Below, piece after piece: positions 2,306 through 21,230 of a stretch of 45,422 bases of DNA. The notes beneath the pieces are model-generated. The model was not told the origin of the DNA and searched no databases. It was given only the letters and a program-made list of their open reading frames with translations. Source of the stretch: a virus; IMG/VR virus record IMGVR_UViG_3300042483_000182, positions 1-45,422 of that record; one strand, written 5' to 3'. A program made the position numbers and the translations under genes. The stretch's first letter is position 1. The number at the start of each line of letters is the position of its first letter.

Positions 2306-2380
2306 TGGAGCCCCCAGTGAATTCCGAGATCACAACCTCCGCTTTACAAGAGCGGCGCTCTACCGTTGAGCTATAAGGGC
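2306..2380 (-). tRNA. tRNA-Thr (anticodon TGT)
   Basis: The 75-base RNA folds into a full cloverleaf: acceptor GCCCTTA/TGGGGGC (two G-U pairs), D stem GCTC/GAGC, anticodon stem CCGCT/AGCGG with loop CTTGTAA, variable AGGTT, T arm GTGAT/TTCAC. CCA is encoded. Anticodon TGT reads ACA threonine codons. The T loop is CTCGGAA, so the usual T54 and A58 are C and G, and the innermost T-stem pair is a T-T mismatch. These deviations may reflect phage-specific decay or adaptation. Confidence 0.88.
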
Positions 2381-2630: not shown

Positions 2631-3161
2631 CTAGATTCCTTGCCTTCCTTGAGTCCAGTCAATCTTTCTACCAGAGGCTACAGCCTCTTTCACTCTACGC
2701 AACCTACCAGAGATTATGTCTTTAGATGTACCAAGCAGCTTTCCGATCTCGCTCAATGAGAGGTCTGGATTATTGATTCGCGCCTGAAGTATGTCAAAGG
2801 TCTCCAGAGGCATACCTTCCCGTTGCTCTTCTAGGGCCTGCTTGTATAGGTGAATGCTTGCCTCCAAAGCCATTCTTGGCCGGTCAGCGTTTACGGCCCT
2901 GGCCACTACCAATGCATGACCTTTCGGCTTGTCAGTGCCCCTGGCAACTCGGCGTCTCTCCCTCTCCGTTAGACCACCCCAGACTCCAACTTCATCAAGC
3001 ATTGTCAGCCCCATGTCTCGACACTCCTTTTGAACAGGGCATCTCATGCAAATAGACTTTGCATAACGCAGGGTCTCGCGGTCATAGGCACCATCATCAT
3101 CTGGAAAGAAGACGTCCAAATCTTTTTCGTCTTTGCAGACTCCTTGAGTCATATCAAACAT
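2631..3161 (-). CDS. WhiB-family regulator fused to a WhiA-like helix-turn-helix
   Basis: A 176-residue protein. The N-terminal WhiB domain (about 1-75) has its four iron-sulfur cysteines in C9, CMRC (38 and 41) and C47, followed by the turn GVWGGLTERERRR. WhiB proteins bind a [4Fe-4S] cluster and the sigma factor sigma-A. The C-terminal part (about 118-165) reads FDILQARINNPDLSLSEIGK then TSKDIISGRLRRVKEAV, closely resembling the helix-turn-helix of WhiA (family pattern R..NP..SL.ELG.L, then K..V..RLRR). In hosts WhiA and WhiB are separate proteins acting at the same promoters. The fusion is inferred from motifs. A second in-frame ATG lies at 3152. Confidence 0.85.
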   Translation of the reverse strand: MFDMTQGVCKDEKDLDVFFPDDDGAYDRETLRYAKSICMRCPVQKECRDMGLTMLDEVGVWGGLTERERRRVARGTDKPKGHALVVARAVNADRPRMALEASIHLYKQALEEQREGMPLETFDILQARINNPDLSLSEIGKLLGTSKDIISGRLRRVKEAVASGRKIDWTQGRQGI

Positions 3162-3407: not shown

Positions 3408-3649
3408 TCGTTCTCTCCGTCTCTATCAAACTCAACCTTGTCCGAAAACGCAATCTCGTCAATCAAGTCATTTAGGTCGTTGACTGACATTGACCCCTTA
3501 AGGACGTCGACCATCTCAGACATCTTACGCTCTAGGATAGTCAGCGTGCGCTCGCGCTCAACCTTAGTCGCGTGACAGATGGGGCAACCCATGTCGTCAG
3601 CAGGGTCCCAGCTCCAACCATGTACTTCACACTCACTACTTAGTGCCAT
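3404..3649 (-). CDS. Small putative zinc-binding protein
   Basis: An 81-residue protein with CEVHGWSWDPADDMGCPICH at about 7-26: two cysteine/histidine clusters (CxxH and CxxCH) that would form one zinc site. The C-terminal half is helical (ILERKMSEMVDVLKG). Start ATG at 3649 overlaps the end of the upstream gene by 14 bp. A GACGTCGAC motif is read here as Met-Val-Asp-Val. Function unknown. Confidence 0.65.
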   Translation of the reverse strand: MALSSECEVHGWSWDPADDMGCPICHATKVERERTLTILERKMSEMVDVLKGSMSVNDLNDLIDEIAFSDKVEFDRDGENE

Positions 3650-4085
3650 TAACTCTCTCCTTATAGTCTTTCAGAATCCAGCTCGAGCTGTTCTTCTTGT
3701 CTTCCCCACCTACGCCAAAAACGAAGTGAAGTCTTTCCGACTCTACCACCATCTCAGGGATATTCTCAAGCGTCCTATCCCCGCCATTGGCAAAGATAAC
3801 CTCGTCCTCAGGGTAAAGCTCGAGAACCTGCTTAATCGCGTCTATTGCTGTACCATCTGCGTCATCAAACTCAATAACGACGTCGACAGACTTGAACTCC
3901 TCAATGATGCCGCCACGCTCGTCAAAGGGCATGAAAGGCTCACCTTTCTTGCGAGCCAACCAAGCGTCCGAGTTGACTCCAACAATAAGGACGTCGCCCA
4001 ACCCACGCGCGGCTCGGATGTACGAGATGTGACCGGAGTGCACAGGGTCGAACCCTCCGGTCACCAGAACAATCTTTTTAGGCAA
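3636..4085 (-). CDS. Cytidylyltransferase-fold nucleotidyltransferase
   Basis: The product has the nucleotidyltransferase signature TGGFDPVHSGH at about residues 8-18, followed by GDVLIVGVNSDAWLARKKG, as in RfaE/HldE C-terminal domains and related sugar- or glycerol-phosphate nucleotidyltransferases. A later NGGDR motif fits the family. It probably joins CTP or ATP to a sugar phosphate; the substrate cannot be read. I start it at TTG 4085, just before the signature. The longer frame to 4238 is rejected because its first 50 codons overlap the real zinc-ribbon gene at 4078-4248 in another frame. Confidence 0.78.
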   Translation of the reverse strand: MPKKIVLVTGGFDPVHSGHISYIRAARGLGDVLIVGVNSDAWLARKKGEPFMPFDERGGIIEEFKSVDVVIEFDDADGTAIDAIKQVLELYPEDEVIFANGGDRTLENIPEMVVESERLHFVFGVGGEDKKNSSSWILKDYKERVNGTK

Positions 4086-4248
4086 TGTTAAGTTCCTTCT
4101 TAACGAACTGCCAGAAGTCCTCCATGTCCTCGATATAGATTTCATCGCTGACTTCCTGGACGTCGCCACTTCGCTTTTCGCGGAAGTAGTGCATTGAGCA
4201 CATCCCCCGCCCAAAAACCTTTTTCTCGCAACTGTCAATCTTGCACAC
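4078..4248 (-). CDS. Small zinc-ribbon protein
   Basis: GTG at 4248 directly overlaps the preceding stop (TAGTG), with AGGAGAG upstream as ribosome site. The 56-residue product reads CKIDSCEKKVFGRGMCSMHY at about 2-21, the C....C.......G.C..HY pattern common at the N-terminus of phage HNH proteins and small DNA-binding zinc ribbons, then an acidic helix (IYIEDMEDFWQFVKKEL). No HNH catalytic residues follow, so it is a stand-alone ribbon. Its stop overlaps the next gene's TTG. Confidence 0.65.
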   Translation of the reverse strand: MCKIDSCEKKVFGRGMCSMHYFREKRSGDVQEVSDEIYIEDMEDFWQFVKKELNIA

Positions 4249-4790: not shown

Positions 4791-5480
4791 CTAGCTGAGC
4801 CTGTCATATATGTTTTTTACACTAGTTGGATACCACTTACCACCATTAGATGTAGGTACGCTATCCTTATTTAAACCCGCGGCTATTTTACCAAAACTAG
4901 TACCAGACCTACGCTCCGCTAAAATCCTATCCTTTACCTCTTTAGGCGTTTTATCCTTGGGGCCAACATCCATCCCCCACACCAACCCGCTATCCCTAAG
5001 GCTTTGATGTCTACCTTTAGCTTTTTCACTCATTAACTTGATCTGCTCTTCAGTGAAGACATGCTTAGGCCTGCTCATAGTCCTATCCCTCTGAGCCGCC
5101 CTCTTTTCCGGAGTCCAGTAGGCCCTAATCTTTTCTATAGACTCACTAGTGTGAGACCCGCCAACAAAACCATCTCCGCCATCAGTGACATTAAGTAGAC
5201 TAGAATCTTTTACTCGATAGTCGCTAATATGAGAAGCCTCTAAGACGCAGGCTTCATCCCAGGATAGGCCAGACTCTAGTATCACATACCCAATAGAGAA
5301 TCCATCTGACTCATGTCTGTTTATCCATTTGTAGACCGGAAGATGTTTTACCTTATTGCCGTTTCTAGCCGAGCTAAGGTGGGCAGCAAATCTTTTATCA
5401 GCATTCTCATATTTACTAATCCCAATGTAACGAATCCTATCAGGCTCTTTAGTTGAGAATAAACCATATACGCAGCTCAT
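4791..5480 (-). CDS. GIY-YIG homing endonuclease with a recombinase-type C-terminal domain
   Basis: A 229-residue protein. Its N-terminal GIY-YIG nuclease domain (about 1-95) shows VYGLFSTKEPDRIRYIGISK, with a later Arg/Glu-rich core and NVTDGGDG. The middle (about 105-160) contains NUMOD3-like repeats, HTSESIEKIRAYW and FTEEQIKLMSEKAKGRH, which bind DNA in homing endonucleases. The last 62 residues (GLVWGMDVGPKDKTPKEVKD onward) are about 61% identical (38/62 by eye) to the C-terminus of the serine recombinase at 23698-24351. It is a free-standing selfish endonuclease, followed by a terminator and more AT-rich than its neighbours. ATG at 5480 appears leaderless. Confidence 0.88.
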   Translation of the reverse strand: MSCVYGLFSTKEPDRIRYIGISKYENADKRFAAHLSSARNGNKVKHLPVYKWINRHESDGFSIGYVILESGLSWDEACVLEASHISDYRVKDSSLLNVTDGGDGFVGGSHTSESIEKIRAYWTPEKRAAQRDRTMSRPKHVFTEEQIKLMSEKAKGRHQSLRDSGLVWGMDVGPKDKTPKEVKDRILAERRSGTSFGKIAAGLNKDSVPTSNGGKWYPTSVKNIYDRLS

Positions 5481-5787: not shown

Positions 5788-6112
5788 TGAGTTCTTCTTT
5801 CTTATCTTTTAACTTCTGCTTGTATTCAGCAGCAAGGTTCTGTACGGTTTGGTTCTTGTAGTGGACTGTCTTTACTCGGTCCAGCTTGAAGCTTCGCATC
5901 TGCTCAGCCCCCTTCTTTCCGCCCCACACATCTAACCACTCGGTTGTCGGAGTGACAATGTATTGGACAAATCTATAACGCCCACGCTCCCCGCGTATCT
6001 TCAGCTCGGTTCCCTTGCTGACGTTCCTCCCGTTGATCTGCATCTCCAGGATGTACTTCCAGCTGTCGTTAGGGCGAGGTCCTTCAGGACCCTTGCTCTT
6101 TTTCCTACCCAC
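5768..6112 (-). CDS. Conserved actinophage-type protein of unknown function
   Basis: A 114-residue basic protein from a GTG start at 6112 (TAGTG junction, GAGG upstream). A central beta-rich segment (YILEMQINGRNVSKGTELKI; RYRFVQYIVTPT) is followed by WLDVWGGKKGAEQMRSFKLD and RVKTVH, a block I recall from hypothetical proteins of actinophages. The charged tail (KQKLKDKKEELNESDQD) overlaps the GroES start. Function unknown. Confidence 0.7.
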   Translation of the reverse strand: MGRKKSKGPEGPRPNDSWKYILEMQINGRNVSKGTELKIRGERGRYRFVQYIVTPTTEWLDVWGGKKGAEQMRSFKLDRVKTVHYKNQTVQNLAAEYKQKLKDKKEELNESDQD

Positions 6113-6720
6113 TATACCTCATTCCCCCAAACGCTCCAACCTTCCATTGGACGTCTGGCAAACATCTCCAGCTTTGTAGCGTCTGGGTATAGACGCTCAA
6201 TCCTGCGGTGGACCTCGTCCGGCTTCCGCGAATGCTCCATCTTAGCAGCAAGAATAGTATGAGGCACACCCTCATCTGAAATAGGCAGCGGTCTGCCTTT
6301 AGGAATGTTCGAAGCAACCAGCACGTACTCGGCTGTTGGCTTCACTACGCTTGGGCGAACACCCTGCGCCCCGATTGGAGTAACTCCATCCGCCCTGGTC
6401 TTAATCCAGGTGAACGCTACCCCACGATAAGTTAGCCCCCAATGCCGGAGAAGATCGATGGCAAAGTCCAAGCGAGGAGAGGTAACCCACATAAAAACCA
6501 CTCCAGGCTTTTCCAAAATGCCCTTGATGTCCATTGCCATCAGATCTTCGTCCGACATAGTCGGATAGAACTTCGCAGCTGCACCCATCTTATCCTGGGC
6601 ACCATAATAAGACCAGGGTGGATCCATAAGGATAACCTGGTACTTAGAGTCTGGAAGTTCGGTCACGACTACTTCTGGTGAATCATTAGGTCTAGGCCAT
6701 TGTCTGGGTGGTATGACCAC
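6112..6720 (-). CDS. MT-A70 family DNA N6-adenine methyltransferase
   Basis: A 202-residue protein with the catalytic motif DPPW at about residues 33-36 (VILMDPPWSYYG). Other family elements are PGVVFMWVTSPRLDFAIDLL, a TWIKT segment, EYVLVASN, and the C-terminal S-adenosylmethionine region around HSRKPDEVHRRIERLYP and LEMFARRP. It methylates adenine N6 in DNA, probably to protect phage DNA or alter gene expression. No cognate restriction enzyme is beside it. The GTG at 6720 has GAGG upstream but overlaps the lipoprotein gene by 52 bp; a GTG at 6666 is an alternative start. Confidence 0.9.
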   Translation of the reverse strand: MVIPPRQWPRPNDSPEVVVTELPDSKYQVILMDPPWSYYGAQDKMGAAAKFYPTMSDEDLMAMDIKGILEKPGVVFMWVTSPRLDFAIDLLRHWGLTYRGVAFTWIKTRADGVTPIGAQGVRPSVVKPTAEYVLVASNIPKGRPLPISDEGVPHTILAAKMEHSRKPDEVHRRIERLYPDATKLEMFARRPMEGWSVWGNEV

Positions 6721-7180: not shown

Positions 7181-7520
7181 TGGAGATGGGGGCATCCGAG
7201 AGCCCCGTCCGCTAAATATTTAATCGTTCTTCTACAAGCTTAGGCAGTTTATATTTCCAGGACCGAACTGCCACATCCTGTGGTGCTGGGGTTTAACGTC
7301 CACAGCATCGACGTACTACAGGTTGTTCTACTTATTTAGAACCTGACTGCCCAGCTAGAACTACTGCTTTGTCAGGGGCCTTAGCGGAGTAGCGAGGCTA
7401 CGCTGCTAGTGCGAATGCGGAACGTGAGTTTGCATTTAGGGGTTTGCCACACTTAAGAGTGCGTGGCCGTCTCTGCTTGCTTCACCGACTTCAGATTTAA
7501 CGTCGAAACCTGTCATCCCC
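7181..7520 (-). ncRNA. ssrA: tmRNA (ssrA), tag ANSRSAFALAA
   Basis: The 5' end GGGGATGACAGGTTTCGACG is the classical tmRNA opening, and its first seven bases pair with CATCTCC at the 3' end to form the acceptor. The tag frame runs 7433-7398: GCA AAC TCA CGT and so on to GCA GCG TAG, giving ANSRSAFALAA, which ends in the ALAA recognised by ClpXP. Mature length is about 340 bases; CCA is not encoded (CTA follows the discriminator). tmRNA rescues stalled ribosomes. The T-loop region shows CTCGGA, as in tRNA-Thr. This fills most of the gene-free stretch 7041-7541. Confidence 0.95.
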
Positions 7521-7541: not shown

Positions 7542-7937
7542 TTAAAGTGTAGCAGATTTTTGCGCATCGCGCCAGCTGAGGATGTGTTCTTCTTTACATG
7601 TAAAGCAGCGGCAACCATTCTCAAACTTTTCTGCTGTACCACAAGCGAGAAGGGCAGCTTCGCCATTCTTGCTGTTCTGGAGAGCAGTCTTGTCTTCGTG
7701 ACACGACTCACACAGAACTTGGCAGTCCTTAAGCTCTTTCTTACGAACCTCTTCGCTACGAGACCAGATGTCTCGAGGATTGAAGGTCTTGTTGTCTTGG
7801 TCCTTGTGATCAACTTCAAGGTTCCGAGTAGAGCCACACTTGACGCACTTACCGCCCTTGGACTCAATCCACTCGCGTTTGCGTTTAGTTACAAAGGCGA
7901 GCTGGTAGTCGCGTTTCTTTTTTCCTGTATAGCCCAT
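7542..7937 (-). CDS. HNH endonuclease
   Basis: A 131-residue protein with a zinc-stabilised HNH core: CVKCGS at about 31-36, LEVDHKD (catalytic His) at about 41-47, and CQVLCESCHEDKT at about 72-84. A second Cys pair, CRCFTCKEEH, lies near the C-terminus. The N-terminus is basic (MGYTGKKKRDYQ). It is probably a homing endonuclease inserted next to tmRNA, since structured RNA loci are frequent targets, though no specific element boundary is visible. ATG at 7937 appears leaderless. Confidence 0.88.
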   Translation of the reverse strand: MGYTGKKKRDYQLAFVTKRKREWIESKGGKCVKCGSTRNLEVDHKDQDNKTFNPRDIWSRSEEVRKKELKDCQVLCESCHEDKTALQNSKNGEAALLACGTAEKFENGCRCFTCKEEHILSWRDAQKSATL

Positions 7938-15438: not shown

Positions 15439-15798
15439 ATGAGCTGCTCAATTTCTGGTGTTTACAACATATCCTGTGATCAAGGTGCCACTTTCTCGCG
15501 AGTCATCACTTGGACCGACTCAGCACGCTCGCCATACAACATTACCGGCTATACCGCTAGAATGCACGTTAGATCCAATGTTACCGCTAATACCACCGCT
15601 ATCACGCTCACAACAGAAAACAGCCGAATCACACTAGGCGGCGCAGCTGGAACCGTGACCCTAACTATTGCCGCAACAGACACAGCGAACTTAACTGCAG
15701 GTCTTTATGTATACGACCTAGAACTCGTCTCTTCGGCTAACGTTGTAACCCGTCTTATTGAAGGTAACTTTAACGTTAAGGCCGAGGTGACGCGCTAG
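15439..15798 (+). CDS. Fibre-associated beta-sandwich protein
   Basis: A 119-residue beta-rich protein: [20 protein letters not shown], then [14 protein letters not shown] and repeated Thr-rich strands ending [14 protein letters not shown]. The pattern QGATF...ITW.D....P.N.TGY.A.M..R is typical of small baseplate/fibre-anchoring domains found upstream of tail fibres. It is coupled to the collagen-like fibre gene by a TAGTG overlap, so it probably attaches or nucleates that fibre. AAGGA precedes the ATG. Confidence 0.72.
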
Positions 15799-18700
15799 TG
15801 GCTGTAGAGTTTGAAGACACAAATAGAAAAGTAATAATCAACCAGCGTGACCAGAACAAGGTCATAGTTCAAGATGTCATAAACAAGGTTGAAGTTGGCA
15901 TAGGCGGCCCGCAAGGACAAGAAGGTGCTCAGGGGACTCAAGGAGTTCAAGGCACTAAGGGCAATCAAGGAGCCACAGGTACTCAAGGCGCAGTTGGAAC
16001 ACAGGGCATACTCGGTACAACTGGAGCACAAGGTGTAATAGGCTCTACCGGTGCTCAAGGCACAACAGGTATTCAAGGCTCACAAGGTGTGACCGGCTCC
16101 ACAGGTGTACAGGGTGCAGCAGGGCAAACTGGATCGCAAGGCACCGTTGGAGCTCAGGGTGTGACCGGAACGCAGGGCACAACTGGCTCACAAGGTATTA
16201 CAGGTGTTCAGGGTCAAATAGGTTCACAGGGCAACACTGGCGATACCGGTGCACAGGGTGTAACAGGTTCTACAGGTGTACAGGGTGTAACAGGTTCTAC
16301 AGGTTTGCAAGGTGTTACGGGCGCACAGGGGACGACTGGCACAACAGGTTCTCAGGGAACTACAGGTTTTGTAGGCTCGCAAGGTATAACAGGCTCACAA
16401 GGCACAACGGGCGCAACAGGCTCACAGGGTGTGACCGGAACCACTGGCTCTACTGGTGTACAAGGTGTCACAGGCTCACAAGGAATTACAGGAGATGTAG
16501 GCGCTCAAGGAACCACAGGTTCAACTGGTGTTCAGGGTGCGGTTGGCACAACTGGAGCTCAGGGAGTAGTCGGCTCCCAGGGCACAACAGGAATCCAGGG
16601 TTTTAATGGTGCACAAGGCACAACAGGTATCCAAGGCAACACGGGCATCCAAGGAACGCAAGGCACAACAGGTACACAAGGCACAACAGGTCCAACTGGC
16701 GATACAGGTCTGCCTGGTGAAACAGGCCCACAAGGTGCAACTGGACAAGGATTTGATTTTCGAGGTCCATACACTCCAGGAGCAACTTACAACGAGTACT
16801 TTGTAGTAACTTACAATGGTTCTACCTACATCTGCCGCGATAATGGTGTTGTTAATGTTGTACCAGGCTCTAGCCCGGCTTGGGATTTATTTACAGAAAA
16901 GGGTTCAACTGGTGCTCAAGGTACAACAGGCGCACAAGGAACACTAGGGGAGACCGGAGCGCAGGGGATTACAGGAGCTACCGGCAATACTGGTTCTCAG
17001 GGTACAACTGGCACCACGGGTTCCACTGGTATCCAAGGCACCACGGGTACGCAAGGCCTTACGGGAGACGTCGGTTCTCAGGGTGTGACAGGTTCAACTG
17101 GCGTCCAAGGAGCACTGGGCACCACTGGTGCGCAAGGTGCAGTAGGTTCAACTGGTATTCAAGGTATAACAGGGACCACTGGTGCTCAAGGCACAATCGG
17201 TACAACTGGAGCTCAAGGAACTACAGGAGCACAAGGCACGACGGGGACCACCGGCGACACGGGTATTCAGGGTGCAGTAGGTACAACGGGCTCAACGGGC
17301 GCACAAGGAACCACCGGTACGCAAGGAACAGTCGGAGCCACGGGAGCTCAAGGAACAATAGGCTCTACTGGAATCCAGGGTATTACTGGAGGGACTGGCT
17401 CACAAGGTGTTCAGGGTATTCAGGGTCTTTCGATTCAAGGTCTTCAGGGTGTAGACGGAACTCCAGGTGCCGGTGGATCTCAGGGATACTACGGCTCTTT
17501 CTTTGACACTACAGACCAACGAATAGTCACACCGTCCGTGGCTCAAGCAGTTACAATAAACTCAGTTTATCCAAACGGTTACAGTGGAATTTCAGTTCTT
17601 GATGGTAGCGAAATAACTATTGCTAATCCAGGAACCTACACAATGACGGTTATTGCAAGGGTATCTAATGACGCAAACTCCGTTCAAGAAGCAACGTTCT
17701 GGCTAAAACTAAACAACAACGACTACCCGAACTCTGCAACTACAGTCACCTTGCAGCCTCGCAAATCTTCAAGTGAGCCATCTTTCCAGTTAATGACTCT
17801 TACTTTTACTGGAACTTCAACTAGTGCCAATGACTACGTTCAAATTTATTGGCATGGCACAAATACAAGTTTGTCCTTAGAGCATAGTGCTGCAGGGACA
17901 TCACCGACTCACCCAGTAACTCCTTCAGTAATCGTTAGTATCACTCAGGTTATGTACACCCAGCTCGGCCCTCAGGGTACGACCGGTACTCAAGGTTTGA
18001 CAGGCGTTCAGGGCACCACAGGTGTGACCGGAACTCAAGGAACAACTGGAACTACAGGCTCACAAGGAACCATTGGAAGTCAGGGCACAATTGGTGCTAC
18101 TGGTGCTCAGGGTACGACTGGCTCCACAGGTATCCAAGGTGCTGTAGGTTCAACGGGTTCTCAAGGAACTATTGGAAGCCAAGGAACTTCAGGTACAAAT
18201 GGCGCGCAAGGAACAATCGGTGCAACGGGAAGCCAAGGCACAACCGGCTCTACTGGAGAGACAGGCACGCAGGGTACAACTGGAACGCAAGGTGTCACGG
18301 GTACACAAGGAACCACCGGCACAACGGGAGCACAGGGAACTACTGGAACTCAAGGAACTACTGGTGTTCAAGGTCTGACTGGCTCATTCGGCGGTGCAAC
18401 ATTTGAGTACGAGTTTGACAATGGAACTACAGACCCAGCAACTCTTGACACAGGAACATTCAGACTAAACAACGCCGACCCAACTCTGGCAAACGTTATG
18501 TACATCTCGTTCAATGACGACCTTGGCGTAAACATATACAACTTCCTACAAACAATCGACGACTCTACATCTCAAATCAAGGGTACGTTTAAAGCTACAA
18601 AAAAGACTGACACTAACGAGTTTGCTTTCTTTAACATCACAGGAAGCCACGTTCACGACGACGACCATTTCAATGTTCCAATTTCTTTTGTTAGCGGAAA

Positions 18701-21230
18701 TACATTTACTCCAGCTGACACAGAGGTATTCTACCTAACATTCCAGCGAACCGGTGACATTGGTGACACTGGTGCGCAAGGAACAACTGGTACGCAGGGT
18801 GTTCAGGGTGTGCTAGGTTCTACAGGTATTCAGGGAACCACGGGTGCAACCGGGCCACAGGGCACGACCGGACCGCAGGGTATTCAAGGCGGTGTCGGAA
18901 CTCAAGGCACTACAGGTTCTACCGGTGTGCAAGGTCTGACCGGTTCGACCGGAAGTCAGGGAACAACGGGTACGACAGGCATACAGGGAACAACCGGCTC
19001 CACTGGCATCCAGGGAACTACGGGAGCAACCGGAAGTCAAGGTACAACTGGTACGACCGGTGCTACAGGGTCTACTGGTATTCAGGGAGCAATTGGTTCA
19101 CAAGGCACAACTGGAACAACGGGTGCCACAGGCATTCAGGGTATATCGGGAACTAATGGTTCTCAAGGAACTACGGGAGCAACAGGTTCTACAGGTGCTA
19201 CAGGTTCTCAAGGTCTTACCGGCTCTACAGGCATTCAAGGAACGACGGGGGCTACTGGTGTTCAAGGAACAACAGGCGCGACCGGGTCTCAGGGTATTAC
19301 AGGCTCAACAGGAGCGACAGGTTCAACTGGTGTTCAGGGTGCCACCGGTACCACAGGCTTACAGGGTGTAACTGGCGCAACGGGAGCCACTGGTTCGCAG
19401 GGCACGACTGGAACAACTGGTAACACTGGTGCAACCGGTGCTCAAGGAGTTCAAGGTTTACTAGGTATTCAAGGCACAACTGGTGCGACCGGCGCGCAAG
19501 GAACCCTGGGAACAACTGGAGCACAGGGCACGACTGGTGCTACAGGCTCACAAGGTATCACTGGTTCCACTGGTGCGACAGGTTCTACTGGTATTCAAGG
19601 AACAACAGGCGCAACTGGCTCACAAGGAACTACAGGCGCGACTGGAACAACAGGCGCAACTGGCTCACAAGGAACTACCGGAACTACCGGTTCTCAAGGT
19701 GTTCAGGGCACACTAGGTGCGCAAGGCACGACCGGCACTACTGGACTTCAGGGGCTAACTGGAGCTACAGGTAGTACAGGAGCCACTGGTTCGCAGGGCA
19801 CGACTGGAACGCAGGGTACAACAGGTATTCAGGGAACAACAGGTTCAACTGGAGCGACAGGTATTCAAGGAACAACTGGTACAACCGGTGCTACCGGTTC
19901 TCAAGGAACTACGGGAACAACGGGTGCTACTGGTGCTCAGGGGACTGTAGGCACAACCGGTGCTCAGGGTACGACTGGCGCAACAGGCGCTCAGGGTATT
20001 ATAGGCTCTACTGGTGCTACGGGTTCTACAGGTGCCCAGGGAACTACGGGAGCAACTGGTTCAACAGGTGCGCAAGGTATTACTGGTACGACCGGTGCGA
20101 CAGGTTCTCAGGGTACAACTGGAACTACAGGTAATACAGGAGCGACGGGCTTACAAGGTATTACTGGTTCGACCGGTATTCAGGGCTCAACAGGTGCTAC
20201 TGGTATTCAAGGTTCAGTAGGTGCGCAAGGAACGACTGGCTCTACAGGTATTCAAGGTGCCACAGGCATACAGGGAACCACGGGAACCACTGGTGCCCAA
20301 GGAACCACGGGAGCAACCGGCGCGCAGGGCACCACAGGGGCCACCGGAACTCAAGGTATTACAGGTTCTACAGGTATTCAGGGAACCACGGGTGCGACGG
20401 GGTCTCAGGGTGTTACGGGCTCTACAGGTACTCAGGGTATTACGGGTACGGGAATTCAGGGTACTACTGGTGCACAAGGGACAACTGGAGCAACGTATTC
20501 ACTTCCGACAGCAACCTCCACAACACTAGGAGGAATTGAGCTATTTTCCGATACAACACAGTCTGTTGCAGCCAGTGCAGTCACTTCCACTGCATCAAGA
20601 ACATACGGAATACAGTTAAACGCAACAGGTCAAGCAGTTGTCAACGTCCCATGGGTAGATACTGACACTAACACCTTTCCAACCACTTGGGCGTGGACTT
20701 CCGGAGCGGGGTCTGGTCCTACTGCTAATATTACTGGCACATCAGCCACTATCTCAGTAGCAGCAATTCCTTCGGCATCAAATACAGCGTCTGGAATCGT
20801 GACTACAGCTGCACAAACGTTTGCCGGAACTAAAACTTTTACCAGCAACATTTATGCAAATGACTCAGGTTGGATAACTACATCTTCTGCAGGTGTTCCT
20901 CTTACCGCATCAACTGGCTGGTCGCTCACTAGCTTCAGTGTCCGTCGCTTAAACGGCATGGTTAATGGAATCATTACAGTTAGCCGTACTGGTGCAAACA
21001 TTACAGTACCTGCCACAGGTAACATTACTAACTCACAGATTGCATTTTTCTCAAGCGGTTGGTATGGCTCAACCGCCGCAAGCGGAATGGTTCTCACAAA
21101 CGGTTCTGGTCCACTAATTGGTGGCTTTGTAGATGTTAGCGGAAATATTACTATTAGTGCGGCATCCTCTGGTGCAACAATCTCAACTGGAGATACTTTT
21201 AGCTTTACCATCTGGGAGATGCTGGATTAG
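15798..21230 (+). CDS. Collagen-like tail fibre protein with globular insertions
   Basis: An 1810-residue protein made mostly of Gly-X-Y triplets ([13 protein letters not shown] style) that would form a long triple helix. Triplet blocks are broken by globular domains at about 315-369 ([20 protein letters not shown], like a small carbohydrate-binding module), about 560-720 (C1q/TNF-like beta sandwich) and about 865-985 (beta-rich). A C-terminal domain of about 240 residues (from about 1567, [11 protein letters not shown] on) probably folds as the receptor-binding head or trimerisation unit. There is a short non-collagenous N-terminus ([20 protein letters not shown]). GTG start overlaps the upstream stop. 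The X/Y positions are rich in Thr, Ser and Gln. Confidence 0.93.
15910..20490 (+). repeat. Degenerate 9-bp tandem repeat DNA encoding Gly-X-Y
   Basis: Long tracts of GGTNNNCAAGGNACNACNGG-type 9- and 18-base units, interrupted near 16743-16905, 17490-17970 and 18385-18760 by unique sequence. Synonymous third positions vary freely, showing selection on protein. The tracts are prone to slippage and recombination, so length variants between isolates are likely. Confidence 0.85.

Follow-up and report, generated by a model that had tools for sequence, protein, structure and literature searches.

An expanded T loop in the tmRNA of a probable actinophage and in other viral contigs

Few elements of tRNA and tmRNA are as strongly conserved as the T loop. 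In tmRNA, a canonical T loop closed by a G53-C61 pair is usual without being defining, and an encoded CCA is dispensable where a CCA-adding enzyme acts. The canonical one-piece form (RF00023) has a 7-nt UUCRANY loop, and, apart from the expanded loop described below, the permuted two-piece forms in this analysis (RF04321, RF01849 and RF01850) mostly carry UUCRANY as well, or GGCRGUA in Alphaproteobacteria, which depart from the canonical tmRNA T loop. As the alphaproteobacterial loop demonstrates, a T loop other than the canonical one can be tolerated in tmRNA, yet this loop is still 7 nt long, has no inserted pair and is chromosomal.

Here, we analyzed a 45.4 kb virus record (45,422 nucleotides; this whole stretch of DNA is called the window below). 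It contains a complete one-piece phage tmRNA gene (ssrA) on the minus strand, running from 7520 down to 7178 (343 nt as matched), which matched the Rfam covariance model RF00023 with 98.1 bits (cut-off 47, E 3.1e-37) over the full model (positions 1-374). An earlier note had proposed a complete tmRNA at 7181-7520 without giving a strand; both the assignment and the ends were right, 7181 being the discriminator base (A). The 5' strand of the acceptor stem (GGGGATG, 7514-7520, minus strand) pairs with the 3' strand (CATCTCC, 7182-7188, minus strand; counted in the structure alignment of the relatives) over all 7 bp, including G3-U70, the identity pair for alanine, which is kept in 12 of 12 relatives. 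The tag frame ANSRSAFALAA with its stop (7398-7433, minus strand) opens with the resume codon GCA, runs from GCA to GCG (7433-7401) and ends at TAG (7400-7398), which agrees with the clean tag that had been proposed; its tag family is common to Streptomyces phage Wakanda (ANSRNAFALAA). CCA is indeed not encoded, as had also been noted: ACTA is found at 7181-7178 after the acceptor, with CTA (7180-7178) in place of CCA. The same region was present at 99.7-99.99% identity in two more IMG/VR contigs of 59.5 and 53.3 kb (L042/L131 and L081/L130), and given three near-identical records, a single-assembly or sequencing error was rejected as the cause of the odd T arm described below.

The window gene resembles the canonical one-piece tmRNA in its G3-U70 acceptor, GGUUUCGACG D region, tag frame and four pseudoknots. 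We aligned 12 related phage tmRNAs and wrote the acceptor, H2, tag hairpin, PK1-PK4 and T arm of the window as one structure. Among these relatives, the structure paired in 82.8% of cells, compared with 37-41% when the 3' partners were slid; 31 pairs changed on both sides, and the covariation score was reached by 0 of 500 shuffles. All helices of PK1-PK4 form in the window tmRNA (all on the minus strand). PK1 (7446-7467, outer stem GCCACGC/GTGTGGC) was the weakest helix in relatives, with 56% of cells paired, and the two helices of PK2 (7325-7376, CCTGAC/GTCAGG and GTTCTA/TAGAAC) were paired in 88% and 97% of cells, those of PK3 (7284-7314, ACGTC/GACGT and TGCTG/CAGCA) in 80% and 64%, and those of PK4 (7243-7280, CAGGA/TCCTG and GGCAGTT/AACTGCC) in 62% and 71%. 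The earlier note had held that rejection of the 3' half by a covariance model, or loss of the pseudoknots, would speak against a tmRNA; the full-model match and the covariation of PK1-PK4 leave the assignment standing. It should be noted that PK1 and PK3/PK4 pair poorly in distant relatives, which counts against our best explanation; PK3 is replaced in L170, L022 and L029, and PK3/PK4 in part of the family.

The T arm is different. Related actinophage tmRNAs (Wakanda and L122; L021, L022, L029 and L098) share the tag family and much of the body with the window, but they have the canonical 7-nt T loop, whereas the loop is 8 nt long in the window and 6 nt long in L032 (CCGGC-UUCGAU-GCCGG); the T arm of relatives is CGGGG-UUCAAUU-CCCCG or similar. 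The window T arm (7189-7206, minus strand) reads GGGGC-UCUCGGAU-GCCCC. Its stem GGGGC/GCCCC was paired in 100% of cells in relatives, and the stems covary across phages. In place of UUCRANY and G53-C61, the loop (7194-7201, minus strand) has the form U-X-UCR-X'-A-N, with X-X' being C-G, and is closed by C53-G61. The deviation of the T arm from consensus, mentioned only in passing in the earlier note, is real and is not a blemish: it represents a recurrent and covarying loop class. We define this expanded-T-loop tmRNA class (U-X-UCR-X'-A-N) by a complementary X-X', a 5-bp T stem and Y53-R61, for which the window shows C-G, GGGGC/GCCCC and C53-G61, respectively. With intron-containing tmRNAs, which have a group I intron in the T loop (PMC11915505), the window shares the T loop as a hot spot; the window tmRNA itself is without an intron, as there was no intron match in the window and the T arm is continuous.

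The expanded loop was found in many other viral contigs. L170 has a T arm identical to that of the window and a different body, and comparison of L170 with L022 and L029 showed that the T arm switches within one family while the body stays. Scanning IMG/VR revealed 41 contigs with a UCUCGGA T arm before a tmRNA acceptor. Most of these had a perfect 5-bp stem, the sequence of which varied from phage to phage. The gene was one-piece, with the 5' acceptor strand upstream, in some contigs and permuted, with the 5' strand downstream, in others, and Rfam confirmed examples of both layouts. The class count was based on 184 rows, one locus per contig, from scans that covered X/X' as A-U, {G,U}/{A,C} and {A,C}/{A,C,G} and left out C-U, G-G, G-U, U-G and U-U. 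In total, 124 viral contigs had an expanded-loop tmRNA with a T stem and a 7-bp acceptor partner, forming 47 clusters at 75% identity (X-X': 59 A-U, 36 C-G and 29 U-A). The gene was one-piece in 60 of them, as in the window, and permuted in the other 64, of which L172, L164, L235 and L298 pass the Rfam cut-offs. A further 16 rows had a 5-bp T stem and no partner in the examined DNA, several of them at contig ends; for two of these (L155 and L302), the acceptor partner was found by a wider search. No tmRNA was present in the remaining 44 rows, among which were all 16 rows that had a mismatched X/X' and every one of the 6 that had G-C. X-X' was never among the seven mismatch types tested. Three clusters mixed X-X' types (L151 with eight A-U members; L140 and L166 with L314, L324 and L358; L377 with L340). 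The expanded-loop permuted tmRNA of L302 (1482 and ~67 nt downstream of it) has a 5' piece with an enlarged insert before the D-loop GG.

Across 54 distinct T arms, the stem and X-X' were paired in 99.7% of cells and 0 of 500 shuffles reached the covariation score; X-X' was AU in 25, CG in 19 and UA in 10 with no exception, but these arms had been chosen for complementary X-X', so that the test against mismatches is the 184-row count. Similarly, the search patterns themselves account in part for the conserved U, UC and A of the expanded loop. The closing pair was C-G or U-A in nearly all expanded T arms, the reverse of the G53-C61 that an older comparative study of tmRNA called conserved (PMC1168896). 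A scan with the 5' end only (GGGGNTGAAAGGATTCGAC), in which the T loop was unconditioned, gave 36 contigs with 34 resolved T arms (2 were unresolved or spurious): 26 had UAUCRUAN, 1 had UCUCGGAU, 5 had 6-nt loops and 2 were canonical, and all 27 expanded loops were complementary. Thus, C-G becomes A-U at the same two places. Because only C-G, A-U or U-A was seen and none of the tested mismatch types, X and X' most likely base-pair. Nearest-neighbour folding did not predict this pairing (probability 0.01-0.12), and the register of the loop is ambiguous, as another reading is an extra U together with a 54-58 pair that is C-G or A-U instead of U-A; the U-A type, which contains UUCGAA, is also readable as a canonical loop with one extra U. 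In addition, the phage tmRNAs L024, L028, L032, L040, L043, L060, L071, L076, L085 and L088 had a T loop of 6 nt, UUCRAU, with U-A or C-G as the closing pair. These 6-nt loops are possibly a step between canonical and expanded loops.

How often the loop was expanded appeared to depend on the D region. Among the matches listed for GGTTTCGACG, 111 T arms were resolved and 3 of them, all from the window phage, were expanded, whereas in the GGATTCGAC scan the fraction was 27 of 34 (Fisher p 1e-19, related contigs counted apart). The D-region pattern GGGATCGAC occurred in nine contigs from few lineages, and all nine were of the UCUCGGAU class.

With regard to bacteria, the UCUCGGAU scan of genome_contigs, with one genome per species for 84,980 species, gave 7 loci, one of which was a tmRNA (L177). 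The contig with L177, from a Nitrosospira MAG, is 32,682 bases long, as is the viral contig of L166, and the MAG has a second tmRNA whose loop is canonical. All three pair types were searched in 274 genomes of the class of G091, with 5 matches and none with a T stem by eye, and a length-tolerant pattern found no expanded loop among the matches listed in 142 genomes of the class of G086. Class names are inferred here; Actinobacteria, Cyanobacteria and Bacteroidota were covered by the UCUCGGAU scan only, and A-U and U-A only in the classes of G091 and G086. Among the matches listed, T arms in the class of G086 were mostly CCGGG-GGCRGUA-CCCGG, non-canonical and chromosomal, and one genome of this class (G129) had an 8-nt GGGCAGAA T loop. 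Judging from this distribution, we infer that the expanded loop is a phage-specific alternative solution for the elbow, used in both one-piece and permuted genes. BLAST revealed no named phage with the expanded loop. The cultured Synechococcus phage BUCT-ZZ01 (ON615601.1, L395 1317-1613) has an unannotated permuted tmRNA with the tag ANDETFSMALAA; it was considered as a named carrier and rejected, its T loop being canonical. Tags of other phages were picked by a score favouring AA ends and were left out of the evidence. Such a loop was not mentioned in the tmRNA literature searched, which mostly excluded subscription papers.

The loop also affects detection. ARAGORN reported neither a tmRNA nor a tRNA in the window, and it misses the tmRNA because of the T arm with its 8-nt UCUCGGAU loop. 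On loci cut to the tmRNA and flanks (18 C-G loci being re-fetched stretches of the same contigs), it found 2 of 113 C-G and A-U loci, 15 of 29 U-A loci, 93 of 99 with 7-nt loops and 5 of 10 with 6-nt loops. The earlier note had called phage tmRNAs uncommon, in agreement with a survey in which they were known in 402 of 18,146 phages, given as 2.3% (PMC9004378). That survey used ARAGORN, and the main search behind a 2025 tmRNA database relied on ARAGORN and Rfind (PMC11915505). Censuses based on ARAGORN overlook the C-G and A-U classes and therefore undercount phage tmRNAs.

The window phage is probably an actinophage. An actinobacterial host is suggested by a WhiB-domain gene, an Actinobacteria marker (2631-3161, minus strand; PF02467 1.2e-18, phrog_472), and by a ribonucleotide reductase small subunit closest to those of mycobacteriophages such as PegLeg (76% identity). 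The WhiB domain is joined with a WhiA C-terminal-type HTH in one protein. SmpB was found in none of 48 viral records with an expanded-loop tmRNA (the search control was positive in 10 of 14 genomes, all bacterial), and therefore host SmpB should be used. The suggestion that the phage tmRNA may replace host ribosome rescue is thus not supported; nor was anything found that times it to late infection, as had also been suggested. We consider it probable that the window RNA is a working phage tmRNA with an expanded T loop of phage-specific design. X-X', with the flanking U and A, would close a three-base apex (U55-C56-R57), and the UCR apex could still dock on G18-G19 of the D loop, which would keep the elbow on a slightly longer stalk. 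Host AlaRS would charge the tmRNA, and host SmpB and EF-Tu would bind it. The charged tmRNA would then enter stalled ribosomes and add ANSRSAFALAA, the AFALAA end of which should direct the tagged product to ClpXP or other proteases of the host.

Why the loop changed can be addressed only tentatively. A broad proposal, to which we give roughly one chance in four, is that phages have repeatedly swapped the near-universal tmRNA T loop for a base-pair-expanded loop that protects the RNA gene while rescue is kept: either the DNA would no longer be cut or invaded by homing endonucleases, introns or integrases that target the canonical loop, or the RNA would no longer be read by host defence, and the tRNA-Thr of the window may be on the same path.

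An explanation confined to homing, somewhat less likely than this proposal, is that tmRNA T-loop DNA is a landing or cutting site for mobile elements and the expanded loop an uncuttable allele; a free-standing endonuclease encoded next to it would cut the canonical T-arm alleles of co-infecting phages, and the uncuttable allele would travel with it. Intronless homing beside tRNA genes is known for T4 SegB (PMC2988022), which the window resembles in having an endonuclease gene beside an RNA gene; group I introns interrupt the T loop of tmRNAs from 21 phyla (PMC11915505). A 131-aa HNH endonuclease gene, possibly a homing endonuclease, lies 21 nt upstream of the window tmRNA (7542-7937, minus strand; phrog_4234 1.9e-27). 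In the family, only L170 also has the expanded loop; a homologue with 41% identity lies near its tmRNA, and no HNH homologue was found in the examined loci of 10 canonical or 6-nt relatives. GIY-YIG-type genes are located within 64 nt of the tmRNA in L135, L139, L145, L274, L289 and L328 (Pfam supports 5 of the 6). Within 1.5 kb, Pfam SegE had 5 members in the expanded set and 1 in the comparison set, and HNH_3 had 5 and at most 1 (146 ORFs each; lists of 183 and 206 ORFs were cut to their first 150, four long ORFs of 1.6-2.4 kb per set were left out, and the sets cover the first part of 48 and 54 clusters). Endonuclease counts were taken from Pfam scans, as regex matches were too weak for counting. 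However, the enrichment among immediate neighbours was weak (8 of 48 vs 3 of 54 clusters, p 0.11, with two of the eight inferred from Pfam member counts and the sets covering 46 of 48 and 50 of 54); a looser count of ten vs three gave p 0.03. Moreover, some of the comparison set may be prophage or bacterial DNA (one neighbour is SmpB), so that phage type is a confounder; L095 and L060 have such neighbours yet 7-nt or 6-nt loops; and a single fixed loop design would not be expected from escape alone. The association with homing endonucleases as a cause is suggestive, but not statistically firm.

A little less likely still is that a host RNA-targeting defence or a host factor recognizes the canonical T arm and that the expanded loop escapes it. 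Immunity by tRNA cleavage is common, and there are phage tRNA variants that evade it. The T arm of tRNA is contacted by Cas12a3 (PMC12851939), and the variable loop of tRNA-Tyr is where Septu cleaves (PMC13096335). The only tRNA detected in the window phage, tRNA-Thr(UGU) (2309-2380, minus strand; RF00005 51.2 bits, missed by ARAGORN), is also altered in its T loop (GUGA-UCUCGGAA-U-UCAC), which fits the altered loop of the tmRNA or reads as a 7-nt loop with C54-G58. It was the only strict tRNA-like match of the expanded-loop type among the loci collected (4.1 Mb, both strands). Four candidates came from a relaxed scan; one of them, L263 5150, is a tRNA whose loop can be read as normal. The strict and relaxed scans did not support the idea that all tRNAs of expanded-loop phages carry the loop. 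Against the immunity explanation, the alteration concerns one tRNA only, and no strict match came from the other tRNA-rich phages that have expanded tmRNAs. We know of no such defence in this system, and to our knowledge none of the tRNA-acting defences reads the T loop. Cas12a3 contacts the backbone of the T arm and not the loop bases (PMC12851939).

It is improbable that the phage RNA is an inhibitor, blocking rescue by competing for SmpB with the tmRNA of the host. Inhibition of tmRNA is described for the TLD-only RNA of phage DS6A or a similar molecule (PMC4131195, PMC11915505); unlike the DS6A RNA, the window RNA keeps its tag, stop and pseudoknots under covariation. A decaying tmRNA or attP remnant with a drifting T arm, for which the covariance score (modest for a tmRNA) and the ARAGORN miss might speak, is very improbable given that both acceptor strands are present and that 124 contigs share the loop class, with covariation in the stems and in the loop pair, and a pseudogene was rejected on the basis of this class and the covariation among the 12 relatives.

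That 47 phage tmRNA clusters in both layouts carry a covarying alternative shows that rebuilding the elbow need not cost the gene. The expanded class opens two questions, namely the share of the T loop in trans-translation and whether phage structural RNAs are altered against mobile nucleases or immunity. Some other genes of the window may be mentioned. Between the tRNA and the tmRNA, there is a homing-endonuclease-like gene with a recombinase-like C-terminal match (4791-5480, minus strand). An MT-A70 adenine methyltransferase-like gene (6112-6720) and a cytidylyltransferase-like gene (3636-4238) are also on the minus strand. On the plus strand, a 1810-codon ORF (15798-21230), whose DNA repeats units of the GGTTCAACTGG type, looks like a collagen-like phage fibre.
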